12,847 bases of DNA from Rhodospirillales bacterium (GTDB lineage: Bacteria > Pseudomonadota > Alphaproteobacteria > Rhodospirillales > 2-02-FULL-58-16), in assembly GCA_021775195.1 (NCBI GenBank), contig JAJFIG010000060.1, forward strand, positions 1 to 12,847, read 5' to 3'. The notes beneath the pieces were generated by a model, which searched no databases, was not told where the DNA came from, and saw nothing but the letters and a program-made list of their open reading frames with translations. Shown here in pieces: positions 1,040 to 12,847 of this stretch. Numbering within the stretch: the stretch's first letter is position 1; every line of letters starts with the position of its first letter. The translations under genes were made by a program, and so were the position numbers.

Positions 1040-3106
1040 TCAGGCCGCCGACGACGCCTCGTCCAATATGGCGTTGACGACCGGGAGAACCCGCTTCTCG
1101 ATGGCGCGGCCATCGTAGATCAGGGAGAAGGGCACCTGATTGGCGAGGTGGTGAAGCCATCCGAGATAGACGAAGTCACGGTAATGTGCCGGCTCGACAC
1201 CGCAGCGGACGAAAAACTCGTCCAGGAAGGCGCGTTCCTCGCCGACGGGCCAGGTCCCGGTGCCGAGCAATGAAACGGCCTGGGACAGACCCACGCCCGG
1301 ATTCGAAAGGTGCATGTTGACGCTCATCAGGTAGTTGATGGCATCGAGAACCGGAAGGCCGGCCTGGTCGCCGCTCTCCCAATCGATGACGCCGCTCACG
1401 CGGCCCCCCTCGACGAATATGTTGCTGGCGCTGAAATCGCCATGAGCCAGGCCGACTTTCACCGGGCGCCCGGTCAGGCGGCCAAGGAACAGGCTCCGCA
1501 GCCTGTCCGCGACCCCATGATCGTCGATCAATGAAACGACCCGCTGCAAGGGCCGGTCGACCAAACGGTCCAGCAAGGGGCCGTCGAGCGCTTGCGGCTC
1601 CATGGCCTCGTGGGCGGGGTTCATGGCCTGCAACAGCGCCGTCACGTCGGGCAGGAGGGCGGTGCGCCCCCGCTCCCGCAAGCCGTCGGACAGCGCCACG
1701 CCGGGCAGCCGCTCCTCGACGAAATAGGGCAGGTTCTGAACCTTGCCGCTGGTCAGGGGGCGCGGCGCCCTGACGCCGGCTTTCCCGGAGACGACGCCGA
1801 GGAGAGCGAGATTGTTGTTCTCCGCCGCTTCACTGACGGAATTGAACGGCACCTTCATGACGACGCGCTCGGACCCCAGGGAGCCGACCAGCACCCCCTT
1901 GTCCTTGTCGGCGACGAAATAGTCCTCGATCGTAACGGCGGGCGGCGCGCCCTTCCCGAGATCGCGCCCGGCCTGGTCCATGATCCGCTCAAGCAGACGA
2001 GGCCCGGCGTGGTCCGACACCGAGTTCACGATTCCATAGGCGGGAACGAAGAACCTGTTGCGCTTGATCCTGTCCCCGATCGCGGCGGGTGGTCTATCCC
2101 GCCAGTAGGGGACGTTGGCATCGACGGGGTCTATCCGCTCGAGCCTGCTGTAGCCTGGCGACAGCCCGAAGAATTCCTGGCGCGAGAACCCGGCCTGGCG
2201 GAGCAGTTTCCGATAGCCGGGAACGGAGTAGGTGAAGGTGCGGTAGGGTTGATGATTGACCGCAATCGAGTACAGGTTCGCCAGGAGCCGCGGCAACAGG
2301 GATCCGTACCTCAGAGCCGAGTGATGGTCGGGGCGCCCCGTGAAGTATTCGTAATTCAGGCGGTTTTCGATGGCGACGAATAGCTGGCCGTCGGGCTTCA
2401 GAACGCGCCTGATCTCCTTGAGAAAGGCGAGCTGTTGGCGCCGCGGGTTGGTGGCACCGAAGTGGATCCGAATCATTTGCAGGGCTTTCGCGATCCTGCC
2501 GTCGGCACCGGAATAGAGACTCTCGTCGTCGGCCACCCACTCGAGCACGCCGGAAACCGTTACACAGTCGAGGGACGCATCGGGAAACGGAAGATATCTG
2601 CCGTCACCGCCGGCAATCAGGACGATGTCGTCATCGGCGTTAAAAATGGAGAACCGGCGACGCGCGAACTGCAGACGCTCCCAAGTGAGATCCATGGCGT
2701 AACAGCGGCGAACCTGCGGTGCGATGTTCTTGACGAGATTGCCGAGGCCGCACCCGAGGTCGAGAACCACGGCGTCGGGCGGCAGAGAGAGAAACATCTT
2801 CCATGCATAGCGCCCGTCGGCGACGAGGTTGTCGAGCCAGTCGGGGTTTCCCTTGACCAGTTCAAGGAAGCGGCGGACGACACGGGGCCAGTCCTGCTCG
2901 GCGACCGGGCGGACGAGTTCCGCCATTTCGGGCCTGGGAACCGGGTTGAAGTAGTAATCGTGGCGGCCGCAGCGCAGGTCGATGATCCCGTCCGCCCGCC
3001 GACCGGAAAATCCGCACGCACCGCAATGCAGGTTGTCCACGTCACCGTGCAGGATTTCCGAACATTTCGGGCAGCTGAACGAATGTTCGCTGTTCATGGT
3101 GGTCAT
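1040..3106 (-). CDS. Zinc-ribbon / SAM methyltransferase / APH-type phosphotransferase fusion, 688 aa
   Basis: Three modules are visible. Residues about 10-35 hold a zinc ribbon (C12-x2-C15 and C28-x2-C31). Residues about 95-330 are a class I SAM-dependent methyltransferase with motif I VLDLGCGLG at 114-122 and acidic residue D139 at the end of strand 2. Residues about 395-680 are an aminoglycoside/choline-kinase-like phosphotransferase with K418 (VVMK), the Brenner motif HGDFSASN at 555-562 (catalytic D557, metal-binding N562) and IDWE with D575. No signal peptide or membrane segment is seen, so it is probably cytosolic. Methyltransferase-kinase fusions are known in polysaccharide chain termination (WbdD caps O-antigen with methyl phosphate and has the same domain order). 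A similar capping or decorating role here is inference, since WbdD's kinase is of a different subtype. ATG at 3106 has only a weak upstream AGGG; the second ATG (codon 4) is an alternative. The preceding 263-bp spacer is rich in dyads. Confidence 0.88.
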   Translation of the reverse strand: MTTMNSEHSFSCPKCSEILHGDVDNLHCGACGFSGRRADGIIDLRCGRHDYYFNPVPRPEMAELVRPVAEQDWPRVVRRFLELVKGNPDWLDNLVADGRYAWKMFLSLPPDAVVLDLGCGLGNLVKNIAPQVRRCYAMDLTWERLQFARRRFSIFNADDDIVLIAGGDGRYLPFPDASLDCVTVSGVLEWVADDESLYSGADGRIAKALQMIRIHFGATNPRRQQLAFLKEIRRVLKPDGQLFVAIENRLNYEYFTGRPDHHSALRYGSLLPRLLANLYSIAVNHQPYRTFTYSVPGYRKLLRQAGFSRQEFFGLSPGYSRLERIDPVDANVPYWRDRPPAAIGDRIKRNRFFVPAYGIVNSVSDHAGPRLLERIMDQAGRDLGKGAPPAVTIEDYFVADKDKGVLVGSLGSERVVMKVPFNSVSEAAENNNLALLGVVSGKAGVRAPRPLTSGKVQNLPYFVEERLPGVALSDGLRERGRTALLPDVTALLQAMNPAHEAMEPQALDGPLLDRLVDRPLQRVVSLIDDHGVADRLRSLFLGRLTGRPVKVGLAHGDFSASNIFVEGGRVSGVIDWESGDQAGLPVLDAINYLMSVNMHLSNPGVGLSQAVSLLGTGTWPVGEERAFLDEFFVRCGVEPAHYRDFVYLGWLHHLANQVPFSLIYDGRAIEKRVLPVVNAILDEASSAA

Positions 3107-4284: not shown

Positions 4285-4726
4285 TACTCCTGCCCGCGAT
4301 TACTCCGCCACAACTGACAAGATACGAAAAAACCAAACGAATTCGACGTTGTTATTGTGATCCGCCATAAACGACTATGCAACCAGAGAAAAACAACTCT
4401 CCAGTACTGATGTGATTTCCAACTTAATACAACCATATGCCGCCCATCCGATCCGAACGGGACTCGTTACTTGACCGGCACCGTTCGACCGTCCTGGCAA
4501 ACCCGGCGGATCGGAGCCGAATGCCCGGTCCACCCCCTGCCGGCACGTTCAGGCGGATGGTGCCCGGTCCCGTGGGCGTGGAGTGGATTCATCACGGCAA
4601 TAATGCCATAAACCAACGGGCACGGATGGGTCCATGGCCAATGTTCGTTCCGGGGGCCGTGACCCTTTGCGTCCCGGAATGTGGCCGCGCGGCGGGGGGA
4701 TGGCAACCAATGGACACGGGCAGCGA
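4285..4726. other. Divergent spacer between the 304-aa gene and the heparinase gene
   Basis: This stretch separates two divergent genes. Its left half (4285-4440) is clearly AT-richer than its surroundings and probably holds both promoters, though I find no convincing -35/-10 pair on either strand. An 8-bp direct repeat ATTACTCC occurs at 4283-4290 and 4299-4306; read on the minus strand the first copy contains the ribosome-binding region and start of the 304-aa gene. The right half (4440-4726) is GC-rich and has open frames with no coding-like composition. The heparinase start may extend into its last 93 bases. Confidence 0.5.
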
Positions 4727-7147
4727 ATGACGCACGGACTTGCAAGCGGCCTGCGCCGCGTCGTCGTGGACCTGTGCCATCGGCTCCTCGATTCCCGGGA
4801 AAGGCCGTATCGCCCCGACCTCGGGGACGCCGGTTTCATCGCCGTCCTGGCATCGCTGACCGGCAGCGGGGCGTCGCCGGACCTGCGCGAGGCCGGCCGA
4901 TTGTCCCTGTCCGGCGACCTTCGGGGAGCGCGGGCCCGGGTCGCGCATCATTTCCGCTCGCGGCCAACTCCCCGGTTCTTTGCCGACATCGGGCAGCTCA
5001 ACGCGTTGGCGCAGCGGCTGGAGACCGAGCGGCCGGGACCGGCGAGAGATCTCCTCGATCGGGCGGAACGGGACTGCGATAGCGGACTGCGGGTTTACGC
5101 GGCGCGGACGCCACCCCTTGCCGGCGGACTGGACTGGGAGCGGCTCGCGGCAGGGCCCGGCAACGATATCCTTTATCCGGTTCGCCCACACCGGTTCGGC
5201 TTCGCGCCGCGGCTGGCGTTCGCCGCCCTTCATGGCAGGGATACCCTTGCCGTGCTGGGCACCGTTCTGAAGGGCTGGATGTCCCGGGCCGCAAGCGGCC
5301 GCGGCCGCGACCCCTATGTAAGCAACCTGGTGGTCATCTATCGGGTGCTTGCGTTGAGCTGGACCTGGGCGCTGGTCGCCGGGCACCCGGACGCGGCGGT
5401 TCACGACGACGGCGATTTGGAGTTCACCCTGCTCAAGATCCTGTATGCGGACGCGCGGCATCTGGCGCCGCGGCTGGGCGATTCGTACCCCAACAACCAT
5501 CTGCTCGCCGACGGCTTCGCCGCCTGGTACCTGGCGACCCTGTTCCCCGGATTCCTCGGCCCGGCGCAGGACTGGCCGCTGGAAGGGGAAACCCTGTGGC
5601 TGAACGAACTGCGCCGGCAGGTCTACGGGGACGGCGGCAGCTTCGAGCATTCGATCCATTACCACGAACTGGTCTGCGAAATGACCGTGGCCTATGTGCT
5701 GTTGAGCCGGCGCAACGGGGTAGAGCCACCCGCCTGGGTGGTCCAGCGCCTGGAGCGCATGCTGGCCCTGCAGGCCGCCCTCGCGGGGCCCGAATGCGCG
5801 CCGCTGGCGATCGGCAACACGACCGAGGACCCGCTGTTTCCCCTCGATGCCGGCGACGGCTGGGCGAGCGGCGCCCTGCGGGAGGTCTATCGCGCCCTGT
5901 TTCAACCCGCGCTGTCGCCGGCGCCGGACGACGACCCGACGGTGGCGCGGGCCTTCTGGATGCTGGGCGGGGAGATGGCGCCGCCGCCCGCGGACGGGGT
6001 GCCGGGCGGCGCCGATTGCGCGTTTCCCGAGGCCGGGCTGTTCGTCTTCGCGGAGTCCGACGCGGGCTCGCGGCTAGTCCTGCGGACGGGGCCGGCGGCG
6101 GGACTGCCGCTGAGCGCCGGGCACATGCACGCCGACCTGCTGAGCGTCTACCTGACGTTGGAAAACGCGCCGGTCATCGTCGCGCCGGGGACATATTCGT
6201 ACCGCCTGGAAGCCAGCGACGGCGACCCGGCCGCCGCGGCCATCGCCGCCCATCTGAGAAGCCCGGAGGCCCACAGCGGGCTGGTGCTGGCGGGGGAAAA
6301 TCCGCTGCTGCCGTGGACCCGCGGTTATGGCAAAAAGAAGGACGTGCCGAGCCGGGTCGTCTCCAGGGCCGTGCGGGAGGACGGGGTCGGCGCGTGGGCC
6401 GAGGGGGAGGTGACGGGGACCACGGCCTACACCGGTCATCGCCGGGGCGTCGTTCACGTTCCCGGACATTACTGGCTGGTCTACGACCTGCCGCCGGCGG
6501 CGGCCGCGGCCGACGGCGCCAGCATCGGATGGCAGGTCGCCCCCGATGCCGAAATTACCCTGGACGGCGGCGGCGCGGCCCGGGTGCACGCCGGGGGCCA
6601 GGTTTTGCGGATCATCGGCAGCGACGGCGCCGGGACCCCAAGCGTGGCCGCCGGGCAGGACGTGCCGCCGAGAGGCTGGGTCTCGGAGAGCTACGGGGCG
6701 GTTCGGCCGGCCCCTCACCTGCGGTTTGCGCTGCAACGCACGGATGCGCCGGCGGCGTTCCTGCTAGCGCCGGGGACGCGGGCGGACTCGGTGCCGCCGC
6801 GCATCGAGGTGACGGCGGGCGACGACGGCGCCCTCGGTTTTTGCGTGGTCACCGGCGACGACACCGATTATGTCCTGCTCAACCCCGGCGGCGGCGATAG
6901 CCCGGCGGCAGGCTGGGGGATCGACTTCAGGGGCCGGTTGCTGTGGCTGAGGACCCGGAACGGCAGGCCGGTCGAGGTGCGATGGATCGAGGGGCGGGGC
7001 CTTTCCTGGCCCGAACACGGCCTCGAGATCAAGGCGAAGGGCGGCGCCTCCGGCATTGACCTCCGCCAGACCGCGGCGGGGACCGAGGTTCGCGCCGGAG
7101 TCGGGGACGAGCTTTCGATCCTTTGGGATCAAGCCCCAAGGTCATGA
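4727..7147 (+). CDS. Heparinase II/III-family polysaccharide lyase, about 806 aa
   Basis: This protein belongs to the heparinase II/III-like (alginate-lyase-fold) polysaccharide lyases, which cleave uronic-acid-containing glycans by beta-elimination. Numbered from the ATG at 4727, the N-terminal alpha-helical toroid (about 1-400) carries PNNHLLADG (N256, N257, H258) and YGDGGSFEHSIHYHEL (H311, Y312, H313, E314). The C-terminal beta-sheet domain starts near 430 and has the hallmark GHMHADLLSVYL (H466, H468, D470) followed by IVAPGTYSY. These are positions where the family places its catalytic His/Tyr and metal ligands. No clear signal peptide is seen. The frame is open upstream to ATG 4634 (837 aa) with another ATG at 4700. 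I prefer 4727 because third-position GC is noticeably lower before it. It probably trims or degrades the polysaccharide made nearby; the substrate is unknown. Its stop overlaps the next short frame by ATGA. Confidence 0.9.
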   Translation: MTHGLASGLRRVVVDLCHRLLDSRERPYRPDLGDAGFIAVLASLTGSGASPDLREAGRLSLSGDLRGARARVAHHFRSRPTPRFFADIGQLNALAQRLETERPGPARDLLDRAERDCDSGLRVYAARTPPLAGGLDWERLAAGPGNDILYPVRPHRFGFAPRLAFAALHGRDTLAVLGTVLKGWMSRAASGRGRDPYVSNLVVIYRVLALSWTWALVAGHPDAAVHDDGDLEFTLLKILYADARHLAPRLGDSYPNNHLLADGFAAWYLATLFPGFLGPAQDWPLEGETLWLNELRRQVYGDGGSFEHSIHYHELVCEMTVAYVLLSRRNGVEPPAWVVQRLERMLALQAALAGPECAPLAIGNTTEDPLFPLDAGDGWASGALREVYRALFQPALSPAPDDDPTVARAFWMLGGEMAPPPADGVPGGADCAFPEAGLFVFAESDAGSRLVLRTGPAAGLPLSAGHMHADLLSVYLTLENAPVIVAPGTYSYRLEASDGDPAAAAIAAHLRSPEAHSGLVLAGENPLLPWTRGYGKKKDVPSRVVSRAVREDGVGAWAEGEVTGTTAYTGHRRGVVHVPGHYWLVYDLPPAAAAADGASIGWQVAPDAEITLDGGGAARVHAGGQVLRIIGSDGAGTPSVAAGQDVPPRGWVSESYGAVRPAPHLRFALQRTDAPAAFLLAPGTRADSVPPRIEVTAGDDGALGFCVVTGDDTDYVLLNPGGGDSPAAGWGIDFRGRLLWLRTRNGRPVEVRWIEGRGLSWPEHGLEIKAKGGASGIDLRQTAAGTEVRAGVGDELSILWDQAPRS

Positions 7148-8365: not shown

Positions 8366-9523
8366 TTAAGCTTGGTTTTTCGCGCGGGCGGCCAATTCGG
8401 CGAGAATTACCGCCCCCCGCTTTGCGCTGGTTCCGATATGGTAAAAACGGCGCCCGCGAAGTTCGCGGATTCTTGCCTGAAACGAGGACGCCTCTTCCTG
8501 AAGAGACGCGAGGGCGGCGGGCAGTTCGTCCAGCCGGTCCGGTCTGATGATCCTGCCGACCTCCTCGCGATAGGAGACTTCCAGCGGCGCTGCCGTCAGC
8601 AGCGTATAGTCCGGATTGTTGATCTTGCGCGGCACATCGACAAACAACACCGGCTTTTCCAATCCGAAGGCAAACTCCATGGCGACGCCCGACCAATCGC
8701 TGATCATCACATGAGAATGGAACAGCGCTTCGTATTTCGTCGTGTCCTCGTTCATGTCGAAGCCCGGATGATCGGTGAACTTCGTGGCCAGGGCATCAAG
8801 GACCGGGCCGGAAAGCTGCCGGGTCCTGGGATGGGGCCGGACGCGAACAAAATGACCAGCATCAAGTAGAATTCGGACGACTTCTTCAGCTCGTGTTTCC
8901 ATGAGGCCCTCGGGTCCCCATGACGGCGCCAGGAGGATGTTCAGGCGCTTGTCGCCGCCAACTGCGGGCGCGGAGTTCTTCCGACCGGCCTCGATCAGGG
9001 CGTCGAGAGGGGGGTGGCCATGGTCGAACAGTTGCTTGGCAGGAAGTCCCTGTGATGCCTCCCATTCGCGTGTCTCTTCGTTATGATGCGGCCCGACGCA
9101 TAGAATTGAATCAAAATGATCGAAGGCCCCTTTCCGGTAGATCATATGTGTGCTGACCAGCGAGTGATGAAGATAGGCATAGTGCCGGACCTCGGGCGAG
9201 CGTTTGATATGGAAGGTATTCATATCGGGCATGGTCATGGCCACCACATCGGCGCGCATATGGTTGAGGAGATAGGTTCGCGCGCTGCCCTTGCCGATAT
9301 AGAAACCCCGGACATGAGGCGGCGCATCGAGCAGGACACGGTCGGCAGCATCCGACGTCAGGTAATAGACGGTGCCGTCATAAACGTCCGCCAGTGCGTC
9401 GATCACCGGCCGCAGAAAGGGTGCGTAGAGCTCGCCTTCCGAATAAAAGACGATCCCATACGATGCGGCCGCATCGCCCCTGTATTGCAGGGATTCCCGC
9501 CAGGATCGGATGAACTGTTTCAC
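8366..9523 (-). CDS. CDP-glycerol glycerophosphotransferase (TagB/TagF) family protein, 385 aa
   Basis: This protein resembles the C-terminal GT-B-like catalytic region of the TagB/TagF family, which transfers glycerol-phosphate (or related polyol/aminoalkyl phosphate) from a CDP donor to a glycan or lipid acceptor on the cytoplasmic face. Visible features are YLHHSLVST (H119, H120), ILCVGPHHNEE (139-150), LLAPSWGPEG, VRPHPRT with H231, and SDWSGVAMEF (275-284) followed by EKPVLFVDVP. The two His motifs and SDWSG are family hallmarks for donor binding and catalysis. The length matches single-domain TagB-like members. No membrane helix is obvious. The GTG start at 9523 lies 13 bp after the small membrane protein gene, with GAGG upstream. 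Next on the strand, 88 bp on, is the cytidylyltransferase, consistent with a donor-synthesis and transfer pair. In proteobacteria such enzymes decorate capsule, LPS or O-antigen; the acceptor here is unknown. Confidence 0.9.
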   Translation of the reverse strand: MKQFIRSWRESLQYRGDAAASYGIVFYSEGELYAPFLRPVIDALADVYDGTVYYLTSDAADRVLLDAPPHVRGFYIGKGSARTYLLNHMRADVVAMTMPDMNTFHIKRSPEVRHYAYLHHSLVSTHMIYRKGAFDHFDSILCVGPHHNEETREWEASQGLPAKQLFDHGHPPLDALIEAGRKNSAPAVGGDKRLNILLAPSWGPEGLMETRAEEVVRILLDAGHFVRVRPHPRTRQLSGPVLDALATKFTDHPGFDMNEDTTKYEALFHSHVMISDWSGVAMEFAFGLEKPVLFVDVPRKINNPDYTLLTAAPLEVSYREEVGRIIRPDRLDELPAALASLQEEASSFQARIRELRGRRFYHIGTSAKRGAVILAELAARAKNQA

Positions 9524-10062: not shown

Positions 10063-10293
10063 GTGGCTAAGAGAAATTATTTCATATTCGCATTGGTGTT
10101 CATCCTTGCAAGCGATCTCGCGCAGCCGGCTTTTGCATATCTCGATCCCGGTACGGGAAGCATGATCCTACAGCTTGTTTTAGGCGGCGTTGCTGGTTTC
10201 CTGGTCATCGGCAAGCTCTATTGGCAACGCGTGAAGGATTTCTTTGGCGGAAAAAGCTCTAAACCCTCTTCTTCGAGCGAAAATGAAAAATGA
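10063..10293 (+). CDS. Small YLDPGTGS membrane protein, 76 aa
   Basis: This small protein begins with a Sec signal peptide (MAKRNYFIFALVFILA core, AFA cleavage site at about residue 25). The presumed mature N-terminus is YLDPGTGSMILQLVLGGVAG, followed by a second hydrophobic helix (about 33-52), a basic amphipathic stretch KLYWQRVKDFFGGK and a Ser-rich tail. I recall small proteins with this Y-L-D-P-G-T-G-S signature beside polysaccharide methyltransferase and sulfatase-like genes; their function is not known to me. If the signal is cleaved, the conserved motif lies at the start of the periplasmic or membrane part. The GTG start at 10063 follows GAAGGA at nine bases. The next gene overlaps its stop by ATGA, so the two are probably translationally coupled. 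A role as partner or anchor for the methyltransferase or the membrane sulfatase is inference. Confidence 0.82.
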   Translation: MAKRNYFIFALVFILASDLAQPAFAYLDPGTGSMILQLVLGGVAGFLVIGKLYWQRVKDFFGGKSSKPSSSSENEK

Positions 10294-11693
10294 GCCTGGT
10301 CGCTCCCGATCCCGGCTCGTTCCGGGATCCTCGCGGTAGAATTAACTATGTAGGTGACAGGGTTTTCCGCACGATCACGGAATCCGCCGCCGCTGATTTC
10401 GAGTTTGTCCGCGATAGCGGTCTTCTCGAGCGCCTTGCCGGCGACGGCCGCATGATCGGCACCGAGATCACCTCCGCCGAGATTCTGGGTGAACGGGGAA
10501 AAGACGCGCGCTATGTCGTTGAACATCCAAAGCTGCCCTTCATCTCATACCCCTATGAATGGTCGTTTCCGGCCTTAAAGGCGGCGGCGCTGCTGCATCT
10601 CGATGTTCAAATGGAGGCGCTCGACGCCGGGATCTCACTATCCGATGCCAGCGCCTATAATGTGCAGTTCCAAGGTGCGCGGCCCCTCTTCATCGATCTG
10701 CTGTCTTTCAGGAAATACCAAGACGGGGAAATGTGGGCGGGTCACCGTCAATTCTGTGAGCAGTTTCTCAACCCACTGCTGCTGCGCTCGAAACTTGGTA
10801 TCGTTCATAACCCCTGGTACCGAGGCGCCCAAGAGGGCATCAGCACCGCGGACCTAAGACGCCTTCTCCCTTGGACGAGCAAGCTTTCGACCAACGTTCT
10901 CCTTCATATCGTGGCACAATCCAGCTTTCAGAATTCGTCGGTCGCGACCAACAAGAACAAGAAGGTCTTGGCCACATCCCAATTCCCCACCTCTTCCTAT
11001 CGCCGGATGCTGAAGAAGTTTAATGATTGGATTGAGACGCTGGAACCCGCGGGTTCGCCCAAAACTGTCTGGCGGGATTACGCGCGGAGCCACAGCTATA
11101 ACTCTGACGAGGTTGCGGCGAAAAAAGATTTCATCGCTAAATTCACGAAGGCGGCGACACCGCGGATCGTCTGGGATCTTGGGTGCAATACGGGCGATTA
11201 CTCCAAGGTGGCATTGGAAAATGGCGCCGATTACTCGATCGGCTTTGATTACGATCAGGGCGCCTTGGAACTCGCCTTCTTACGCGCTTCAACGGAAAAA
11301 CTGAATTTTCTGCCGCTCTTCCTCGACAGCGCCAACCCCTCGCCCAATCAGGGATGGAGCCAGAGCGAGCGCAAAGGGATGAGGGAGCGCGCAAGCGCCG
11401 ATGCGATCATTGCGCTCGCCTTCATTCACCATATCATTATCGGGCGAAATGTACCGTTGGAGGATGTGGTCGGCTGGTTGACCAGCCTCGCGCCACAAGG
11501 TGTTATCGAATTCGTGCCCAAGGACGACCCGATGGTCCAGGAACTCCTGGCCTTGCGAGAGGACATATTCCCCAAATACTCAGAAGAATATTTCTTAAAT
11601 AAATTACAACAAAATGCGACGATTTATAAGATACAGAAAATAACAAACAGCGGCAGAAAGCTCATTTGGTACACAAAATCAAGAAATTCCTGA
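10290..11693 (+). CDS. NoeA-like class I SAM methyltransferase with kinase-like N-terminal domain, 467 aa
   Basis: The C-terminal half (about 275-410) is a class I methyltransferase: IVWDLGCNTGDYS at 293-305 is SAM motif I, GFDYD at 318-322 ends strand 2, and ADAIIALAFIHHI (370-382) is the motif IV region. The overall form matches proteins annotated as NoeA-like, named after a rhizobial nodulation protein; that resemblance is from memory. The N-terminal half (about 1-200) is normally left undescribed. Here it contains SDASAYNVQF (118-127) and PLFIDLLSF (132-140), giving D119, N124 and D136 with the spacing of kinase catalytic-loop and DFG/DxD residues, preceded by a helix-rich stretch as in kinases. 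I see no clear glycine loop or ATP-binding Lys, so this may be an atypical or inactive kinase fold. ATG 10290 overlaps the previous stop. There is no signal peptide or membrane helix. It probably acts in the cytosol on a glycan or glycolipid precursor; the substrate is unknown. Confidence 0.82.
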   Translation: MSLVAPDPGSFRDPRGRINYVGDRVFRTITESAAADFEFVRDSGLLERLAGDGRMIGTEITSAEILGERGKDARYVVEHPKLPFISYPYEWSFPALKAAALLHLDVQMEALDAGISLSDASAYNVQFQGARPLFIDLLSFRKYQDGEMWAGHRQFCEQFLNPLLLRSKLGIVHNPWYRGAQEGISTADLRRLLPWTSKLSTNVLLHIVAQSSFQNSSVATNKNKKVLATSQFPTSSYRRMLKKFNDWIETLEPAGSPKTVWRDYARSHSYNSDEVAAKKDFIAKFTKAATPRIVWDLGCNTGDYSKVALENGADYSIGFDYDQGALELAFLRASTEKLNFLPLFLDSANPSPNQGWSQSERKGMRERASADAIIALAFIHHIIIGRNVPLEDVVGWLTSLAPQGVIEFVPKDDPMVQELLALREDIFPKYSEEYFLNKLQQNATIYKIQKITNSGRKLIWYTKSRNS

Positions 11694-11765
11694 AATACAT
11701 TATTGATAGTGGAATTATTTCTATAGGACGAACGCCGATTGGCATCATATCAGGGACAAATGTAT

Positions 11766-12847
11766 ATGTTTCGATGGCCTTTTCATTCTATTTTTCTCAC
11801 TATATTTCCAGTGCTCTCGCTGTATGCGTATAATATCGAGCATTTTAATACTGCAGTTATAATCGTTCCTATTGTCGTTTCTTTGGTTTTTTCTTTATTT
11901 GTATTTGCTATATTTTATATTCCAACGAGAGATATCAATAAGTCAGCACTTTTTGTCGCAGCCGTAATGGCATTCATTATCCTCTACCAGCCAGCTTATG
12001 GTTTATTTGAGACAGTGCGGATCGAAACGCCAGTTGTTGTCATTGGACCCAACAAGATCCTATACTTCAGCGGCGCGGCCTTCTTGATCTCAACAGCCAT
12101 TTACCTCTCGCGAGCGAAAGGCAACTTCGGCAATCTGGCCCTTGTCCTCAACGTAGCCAGCGCGGTCATGGTACTCGCGTCCATTGCTAACATTGTCGGC
12201 TACAAACTTTTAACCTGGCAGGCAACGCACGCGACAGCATCGACAACCCGCGTCCTCGATAATTCACATCCGAGCATAGGCCAACCCGGTCTCCCAAACA
12301 TTTACCACATCATCCTCGACGGATACGGTCGTTCGGACATTTATGCGAAGTATTTTGATTTTGATAACACAGATCTCATTGCGTTTCTGCGGGACCAGGG
12401 TTTCATTGTGGCAGAGCATAGCCGGTCCAACTACGTACAAACCGCACTCTCTGTCGCCTCAATGCTTAACGCCGACTATCTGCGGAACCTTTTGCCGGAC
12501 CTGGACCCAACTGTCGCGCGGGACAGCCGAGAGTTGGTCGTCGACCTCATTCGCGAAAATGCTGTCTTTTCCAACCTTCAGAAACTGGGATACCAGATTA
12601 CTTCTTTCGACTCCGGCTATGCCGCGACGGAGTTCAAGAAGAAGACGGGTGTCCATCTATTGTCCGCCAATTTCTCCGCAATCGGGGGCTTTGCCTTCCT
12701 TGACGAATTTCAAAGTGAGCTTCTCAATTTAACGCCGTTGCCAAGCCTCGCGAAATTCGTGACGGGGCATGATCGCCTCAGTAACTTTGCCGTACGCCGC
12801 AGTCGTATCAAGTTTGCATTCGACACCGTCGGAAACTCCTCAATTCG
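11766..12847 (+). CDS. Membrane-anchored sulfatase / phosphoglycerol-transferase-like protein, 3' end outside window
   Basis: The frame is open from about 11727 to the window end, giving 360 visible codons. The N-terminal part (about 1-150) has roughly five membrane helices (for example IFLTIFPVLSLYAY, VIIVPIVVSLVFSLFVFAIF, ALFVAAVMAFIILY). A linker follows, then the start of an alkaline-phosphatase-superfamily domain with NIYHIILDGYGRSD. D185 there is the expected metal ligand, and SNYVQTALSVASMLN follows with T226 at the nucleophile position. A Thr nucleophile, instead of the Cys or Ser of the true sulfatase motif, resembles lipoteichoic-acid-synthase-type and phosphoglycerol/phosphoethanolamine transferases. 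The domain should face the periplasm. ATG 11766 is nine bases from AGGGA; ATG 11760 is in frame but only three bases away. It lies 72 bp after the methyltransferase and is probably in the same operon. The early part is strikingly AT-rich, as is common in membrane-segment genes. The C-terminal metal-site motifs are not visible. Confidence 0.85.
   Translation, partial: MFRWPFHSIFLTIFPVLSLYAYNIEHFNTAVIIVPIVVSLVFSLFVFAIFYIPTRDINKSALFVAAVMAFIILYQPAYGLFETVRIETPVVVIGPNKILYFSGAAFLISTAIYLSRAKGNFGNLALVLNVASAVMVLASIANIVGYKLLTWQATHATASTTRVLDNSHPSIGQPGLPNIYHIILDGYGRSDIYAKYFDFDNTDLIAFLRDQGFIVAEHSRSNYVQTALSVASMLNADYLRNLLPDLDPTVARDSRELVVDLIRENAVFSNLQKLGYQITSFDSGYAATEFKKKTGVHLLSANFSAIGGFAFLDEFQSELLNLTPLPSLAKFVTGHDRLSNFAVRRSRIKFAFDTVGNSSI

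Follow-up and report, generated by a model that had tools for sequence, protein, structure and literature searches.

Background

WbdD of Escherichia coli O9/O9a phosphorylates mannose and then methylates that phosphate (PMC3482155). Its methyltransferase occupies residues 1-210 and its kinase residues 211-459, and the variants H132A, H133A, R203A and Y16F keep phosphorylation and lose methylation (PMC3482155). Here we investigate a protein that resembles NoeA of Sinorhizobium meliloti and combines a predicted kinase fold with a methyltransferase in the opposite order. It is encoded in 12,847 nucleotides of a Rhodospirillales bacterium (GenBank assembly GCA_021775195.1, contig JAJFIG010000060.1), a stretch referred to throughout as the window.

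The closest described proteins are those of the Lani_1194 family, which Krysinska et al. defined in 2022 as kinase-methyltransferases, naming NoeA as a homologue (PMC9758233). In the parts of that paper available to us, the family emerges from a survey of effector kinases, and it has the conserved Asp, Asn and Asp of a kinase site. R38 of Lani_1194 replaces the usual kinase Lys, and no ion-pair Glu is reported to have been found (PMC9758233). Of about two thousand homologues, 94% carry a methyltransferase. Lani_1193 is a neighbour in 65% of 816, and Lani_1195, a NoeB homologue, is one in 38% (PMC9758233). The kinase-methyltransferase reading of the NoeA family is therefore right, but it is not new, having been predicted in print in 2022, and the kinase reading as such confirms published work. 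Relative to the available text of that paper, we would add, as inference, the His-His and Arg of the methyltransferase half that align with WbdD, and a small upstream gene.

A NoeA-like protein of two domains

The protein and its domains are located in the window as follows.

10290..11693, + strand: NoeA-like kinase-methyltransferase, 467 residues, an open reading frame (ORF)
10290..11009, + strand: predicted kinase-like domain at the N-terminus, residues 1-240 in the model, with kinase matches in Foldseek and VIA-align
11055..11690, + strand: C-terminal class I S-adenosylmethionine (SAM)-dependent methyltransferase domain, residues ~256-467

The protein is 46.6% identical to S. meliloti NoeA over 99% coverage (tblastn, E ~1e-117), and it most likely belongs to the NoeA / Lani_1194 kinase-methyltransferase family. 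It shares with these proteins full-length homology, the kinase residues, an invariant Arg, the order of kinase before methyltransferase and a NoeB-like neighbour. It differs from S. meliloti NoeA in its setting, which is another genome and a polysaccharide-like region; no nod genes were recognised among the genes of the window.

The full-length AlphaFold2 model has a mean predicted local distance difference test score (pLDDT) of 91.1 and a predicted template modelling score of 0.92. It places a kinase-like domain at the N-terminus and a methyltransferase at the C-terminus, the latter of class I by VIA-align. In fold searches this model returned mainly methyltransferases, and for that reason residues 1-240 were modelled alone. 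The separate model (pLDDT again 91.1) matches protein kinases, CK2 and Rio among them, in both Foldseek and VIA-align, which is the outcome anticipated when a fold search of the N-terminal residues was proposed. The modelling thus supports a protein-kinase-like fold for this domain.

Sequence profiles do not recognise the domain. In a Pfam scan of the N-terminal domains of 49 members, eight families were matched, each in one member and none a kinase, and the window's own domain had zero Pfam matches. A profile of the N-terminal domain compared with PDB sequences matched nothing up to E 10. Pfam matches in the NoeA-like protein are limited to the methyltransferase half, and it had rightly been pointed out that the usual annotation sees this half alone.

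Conserved residues of the predicted kinase site

The original prediction had read D119, N124 and D136, with S118 alongside, as the Asp-x4-Asn and following Asp of a kinase site. All four residues are at the positions given. Conservation was assessed in 325 alignment rows, comprising 120 'near' rows (the best-listed close matches), 120 'far' rows (the best-listed matches to a relative of 32-34% identity), 83 loci, the window protein and NoeA of S. meliloti. Removing five duplicates, of which one is the protein of the window, leaves 320 distinct rows. The window's own copy among the loci (L001) and a cut locus (L069) were excluded, and the rows stop short of the most distant relatives, those in actinobacteria and archaea, which are stated in print to have the family.

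10368-10370, + strand: R27, probable counterpart of the ATP-binding Lys (K72 of PKA); Arg in 322/325 rows, the other three having a gap
10644-10646, + strand: D119, catalytic Asp position, in a loop between strands 115-117 and 125-128; 324/325 rows, one gap
10659-10661, + strand: N124, catalytic-loop Asn and metal ligand position; 324/325 rows, one gap
10695-10697, + strand: D136, DFG Asp position and metal ligand, after strand 131-134; 325/325 rows

The three acidic and amide residues singled out beforehand are thus invariant apart from one gapped row, and their conservation is the same in the 288 rows that a 90% identity filter leaves. Among the 21 Asp and Asn of residues 1-240, only D13, D119, N124 and D136 are invariant. 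R27 sits on the strand preceding the first long helix of the N-terminal model; it is probably the counterpart of PKA K72 and presumably that of R38 of Lani_1194.

The bare spacing motif D-x4-N-x11/12-D was discarded as evidence for a kinase. When the NoeA-like protein is shuffled, 670 of 5000 versions contain it, and in the fetched loci it occurs in 34/633 other genes as against 83/84 NoeA-like genes (117/717 genes when the NoeA-like genes are included). The kinase-residue observation holds up because conservation carries it, not the spacing pattern.

A second kinase-methyltransferase fusion lies in the window at 1040-3106 on the - strand. In its 688 residues a methyltransferase precedes an APH-type kinase (Pfam APH, E 2.6e-13), which is the WbdD-like order. 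D557, N562 and D575 of this protein had been put forward as corresponding to D119, N124 and D136. These residues and the similar flanks are indeed present, but the likeness is one of motif only; the hhalign comparison of the N-terminal domain with the kinase part of the other fusion is not significant (E 0.14) and its alignment lies off the motif. In layout the window fusion recalls ORF6 of Klebsiella pneumoniae O7, in which a methyltransferase is followed by a kinase like AmiN (amicoumacin kinase) and then by coiled-coil and glycosyltransferase modules (PMC11231755). According to the portion of that report available, ORF6 is a second fusion of both activities, distinct from WbdD, and acts at a glycan end that is likened to methyl-phosphate; its methyltransferase comes first, unlike that of the NoeA-like protein (PMC11231755).

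The methyltransferase half and WbdD

A profile of the NoeA-family methyltransferase was aligned to WbdD, represented by the 708-residue counterpart from E. coli HS, which has the same residues at the same numbers. Two of the resulting pairings involve residues that are essential for methylation in WbdD.

11427-11432, + strand: H380-H381, aligned with WbdD H132-H133; H380 in 324/325 rows (one gap), H381 in 325/325
11655-11657, + strand: R456, aligned with WbdD R203; 320/325 rows (four gaps, one Ser)

A control with 24 other methyltransferases, the next-best matches of the phylum search, had a mixed outcome; none has His-His at the place of H380 and H381 when its alignment is forced. As far as sequence alignment can tell, the methyltransferase half is consistent with phosphate methylation, which is not proof of it.

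WbdD and the NoeA-like protein each join a kinase or kinase-like domain to a class I methyltransferase within a single polypeptide, and the predicted fold and conserved residues bear out the proposal of a fusion whose order is the reverse of WbdD. The layout of the WbdD family, methyltransferase, kinase and coiled-coil, is not that of the NoeA-like protein; its two domains take up the 467 residues, and no coiled-coil follows. The E. coli HS counterpart of WbdD (L118, 17967-20093) is named 'class I SAM-dependent methyltransferase' in RefSeq, its kinase half hidden as in NoeA. A search for WbdD in 398 genomes of the phylum, run without a positive control, gave no match at E 1e-10.

Gene neighbourhood

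The NoeA-like gene is flanked by two genes on the same strand.

10063..10293, + strand: small membrane-type protein, 76 residues, with an AYLDPGTGS motif and without Pfam match; membrane nature judged by eye
11739..12845, + strand: NoeB-like protein of membrane type, sulfatase/alkaline phosphatase superfamily, truncated where the window ends

The small ORF shares 4 bases with the start of the NoeA-like gene. A related ORF (E 1e-4 or better), on the same strand and ending at most 300 bases upstream, is present at 79 of 84 loci; these small ORFs were called mechanically and vary widely in length. Of the five loci without one, a single locus has just 2 bases of sequence upstream and two others have weak matches. 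S. meliloti has a gene of the same kind.

L086, 3272-3487: small hypothetical gene of S. meliloti, of the AYLDPGTGS type, flanked by nodL and noeA

In S. meliloti ml47 this ORF is annotated as hypothetical only and has AYLDPGTGSMLVQ in the middle of its sequence. The small AYLDPGTGS-type protein may be the published Lani_1193.

The NoeB-like protein of the window has zero Pfam matches when taken alone. As a profile with 23 relatives it matches S. meliloti NoeB (hhalign probability 97.8, E 1.1e-12). A co-oriented downstream member of five clusters, all of which tie to the sulfatase/alkaline phosphatase superfamily by profile or Pfam, is present in at least 53 of 81 loci, three of the 84 having been set aside for this count with fewer than 600 bases downstream. 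The figure is a lower bound, since NoeB-like ORFs beside L017 and L022 were passed over.

A proposed pathway and its alternatives

Fold, residue conservation, domain order and gene neighbourhood all have computational support. For catalysis, the order of steps, phosphate methylation, substrate and location, we infer the following scheme. The NoeA-like protein would be a cytoplasmic two-domain enzyme. In its kinase-fold domain, R27, N124 and D136 would bind ATP and metal and D119 would serve as the catalytic Asp; the domain would phosphorylate a hydroxyl, most probably of a sugar or a lipid-linked saccharide. The C-terminal methyltransferase would then methylate this phosphate with SAM, using H380, H381 and R456, to leave a methyl-phosphate group such as WbdD makes. 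The small upstream membrane-type protein and the NoeB-like membrane enzyme probably share the pathway at the membrane. Taken whole, the scheme of ATP-dependent phosphorylation of a saccharide or lipid-saccharide and subsequent SAM-dependent methylation of the phosphate, together with membrane partners, has in our view slightly better than an even chance. These two successive steps make a concrete and directly testable prediction.

Several results weigh against this scheme. In the methyltransferase half, Arg is found at the place of R456 in 11 of the 24 controls by forced alignment, so this residue does not discriminate by sequence. All 24 controls outscore WbdD against the NoeA-family methyltransferase profile, and in VIA-align CmoA, NodS and ChlM are tied on Z, so that the resemblance to phosphate methyltransferases is not special. 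WbdD Y16, which is also essential, is not paired with Y264 in the profile alignments. The kinase halves of NoeA and WbdD have no significant profile match (hhalign E 0.47, 38 columns only). Those 38 columns set D119, N124 and D136 on WbdD D351, N356 and D369; at this E value they give no support for common descent. In the kinase-like domain itself, Arg stands in place of the usual Lys, and the published family lacks the ion-pair Glu as far as the available text goes (PMC9758233), so that this domain might lack activity or catalyse a different reaction.

Is the methyltransferase, then, the sole enzyme, with the N-terminal domain a pseudokinase or ATP sensor that serves to regulate or scaffold it? 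The Arg and the missing Glu make this the main rival, and the few N-lobe strands in the separate model also favour it. However, gaps apart, no row departs from R27, from the catalytic Asp or from the metal-binding Asn and Asp; such constancy would be needless in a dead domain, and we regard a pseudokinase as unlikely. Or do the two domains modify different sites of one acceptor, so that no methyl-phosphate is made? The methyltransferase fold is equally close to NodS, by title an N-methyltransferase, and to WbdD. Fusion in a single chain and His-His at the WbdD position favour a shared acceptor phosphate, although the His-His argument is weakened by NodS and RebM, which also bear two His or two Tyr according to the sections of the WbdD paper at hand (PMC3482155). 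Separate sites seem to us a little less probable still than a pseudokinase. A third possibility is that the target of the kinase-fold domain is a protein, to be phosphorylated or changed in some other way. This is considered for putative effectors within a family drawn from an effector-kinase survey (PMC9758233), and the domain's matches to CK2, Rio and other protein kinases might suggest it, but it is improbable given the membrane-type neighbours, the polysaccharide-like window and the place of NoeA within a Nod-factor operon.

Extending phosphorylation and phosphate methylation from the window protein to the family is more speculative. NoeA-type proteins might add methyl-phosphate to glycans or lipid-linked saccharides; in S. 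meliloti the acceptor could be the Nod factor or its precursor. They would have evolved separately from WbdD, with reversed domains, and would form a three-gene unit with the AYLDPGTGS protein and the membrane enzyme of the alkaline phosphatase superfamily, the latter subsequently transferring or removing the group. This we offer tentatively, and think it rather doubtful as a whole. The small gene between nodL and noeA is a further component for testing.

Distribution and other genes of the window

Full-length relatives of the NoeA-like protein are sporadic, being present in 6 of 299 genomes of the phylum, the window's own included (above 300 bits and covering both domains). A count of 156/299 genomes from the same search is misleading, as the other listed matches cover mainly the SAM-binding stretch. 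Among plasmids, tblastn matches occur in 65 of 72,556 records, 57 of them from Sinorhizobium.

The window looks like a polysaccharide-type region. At 4634-7147 (+ strand) it encodes a heparinase II/III-like protein, and the product of 8366-9523 (- strand) matches CDP-glycerol glycerophosphotransferase weakly, at E 1e-4 and just below the cut-off. The same genome has a second NoeA-like copy on another contig (L005, G000:C292:13517-14899), 47% identical; it is preceded by a small protein of its own and followed by a NoeB-type gene.
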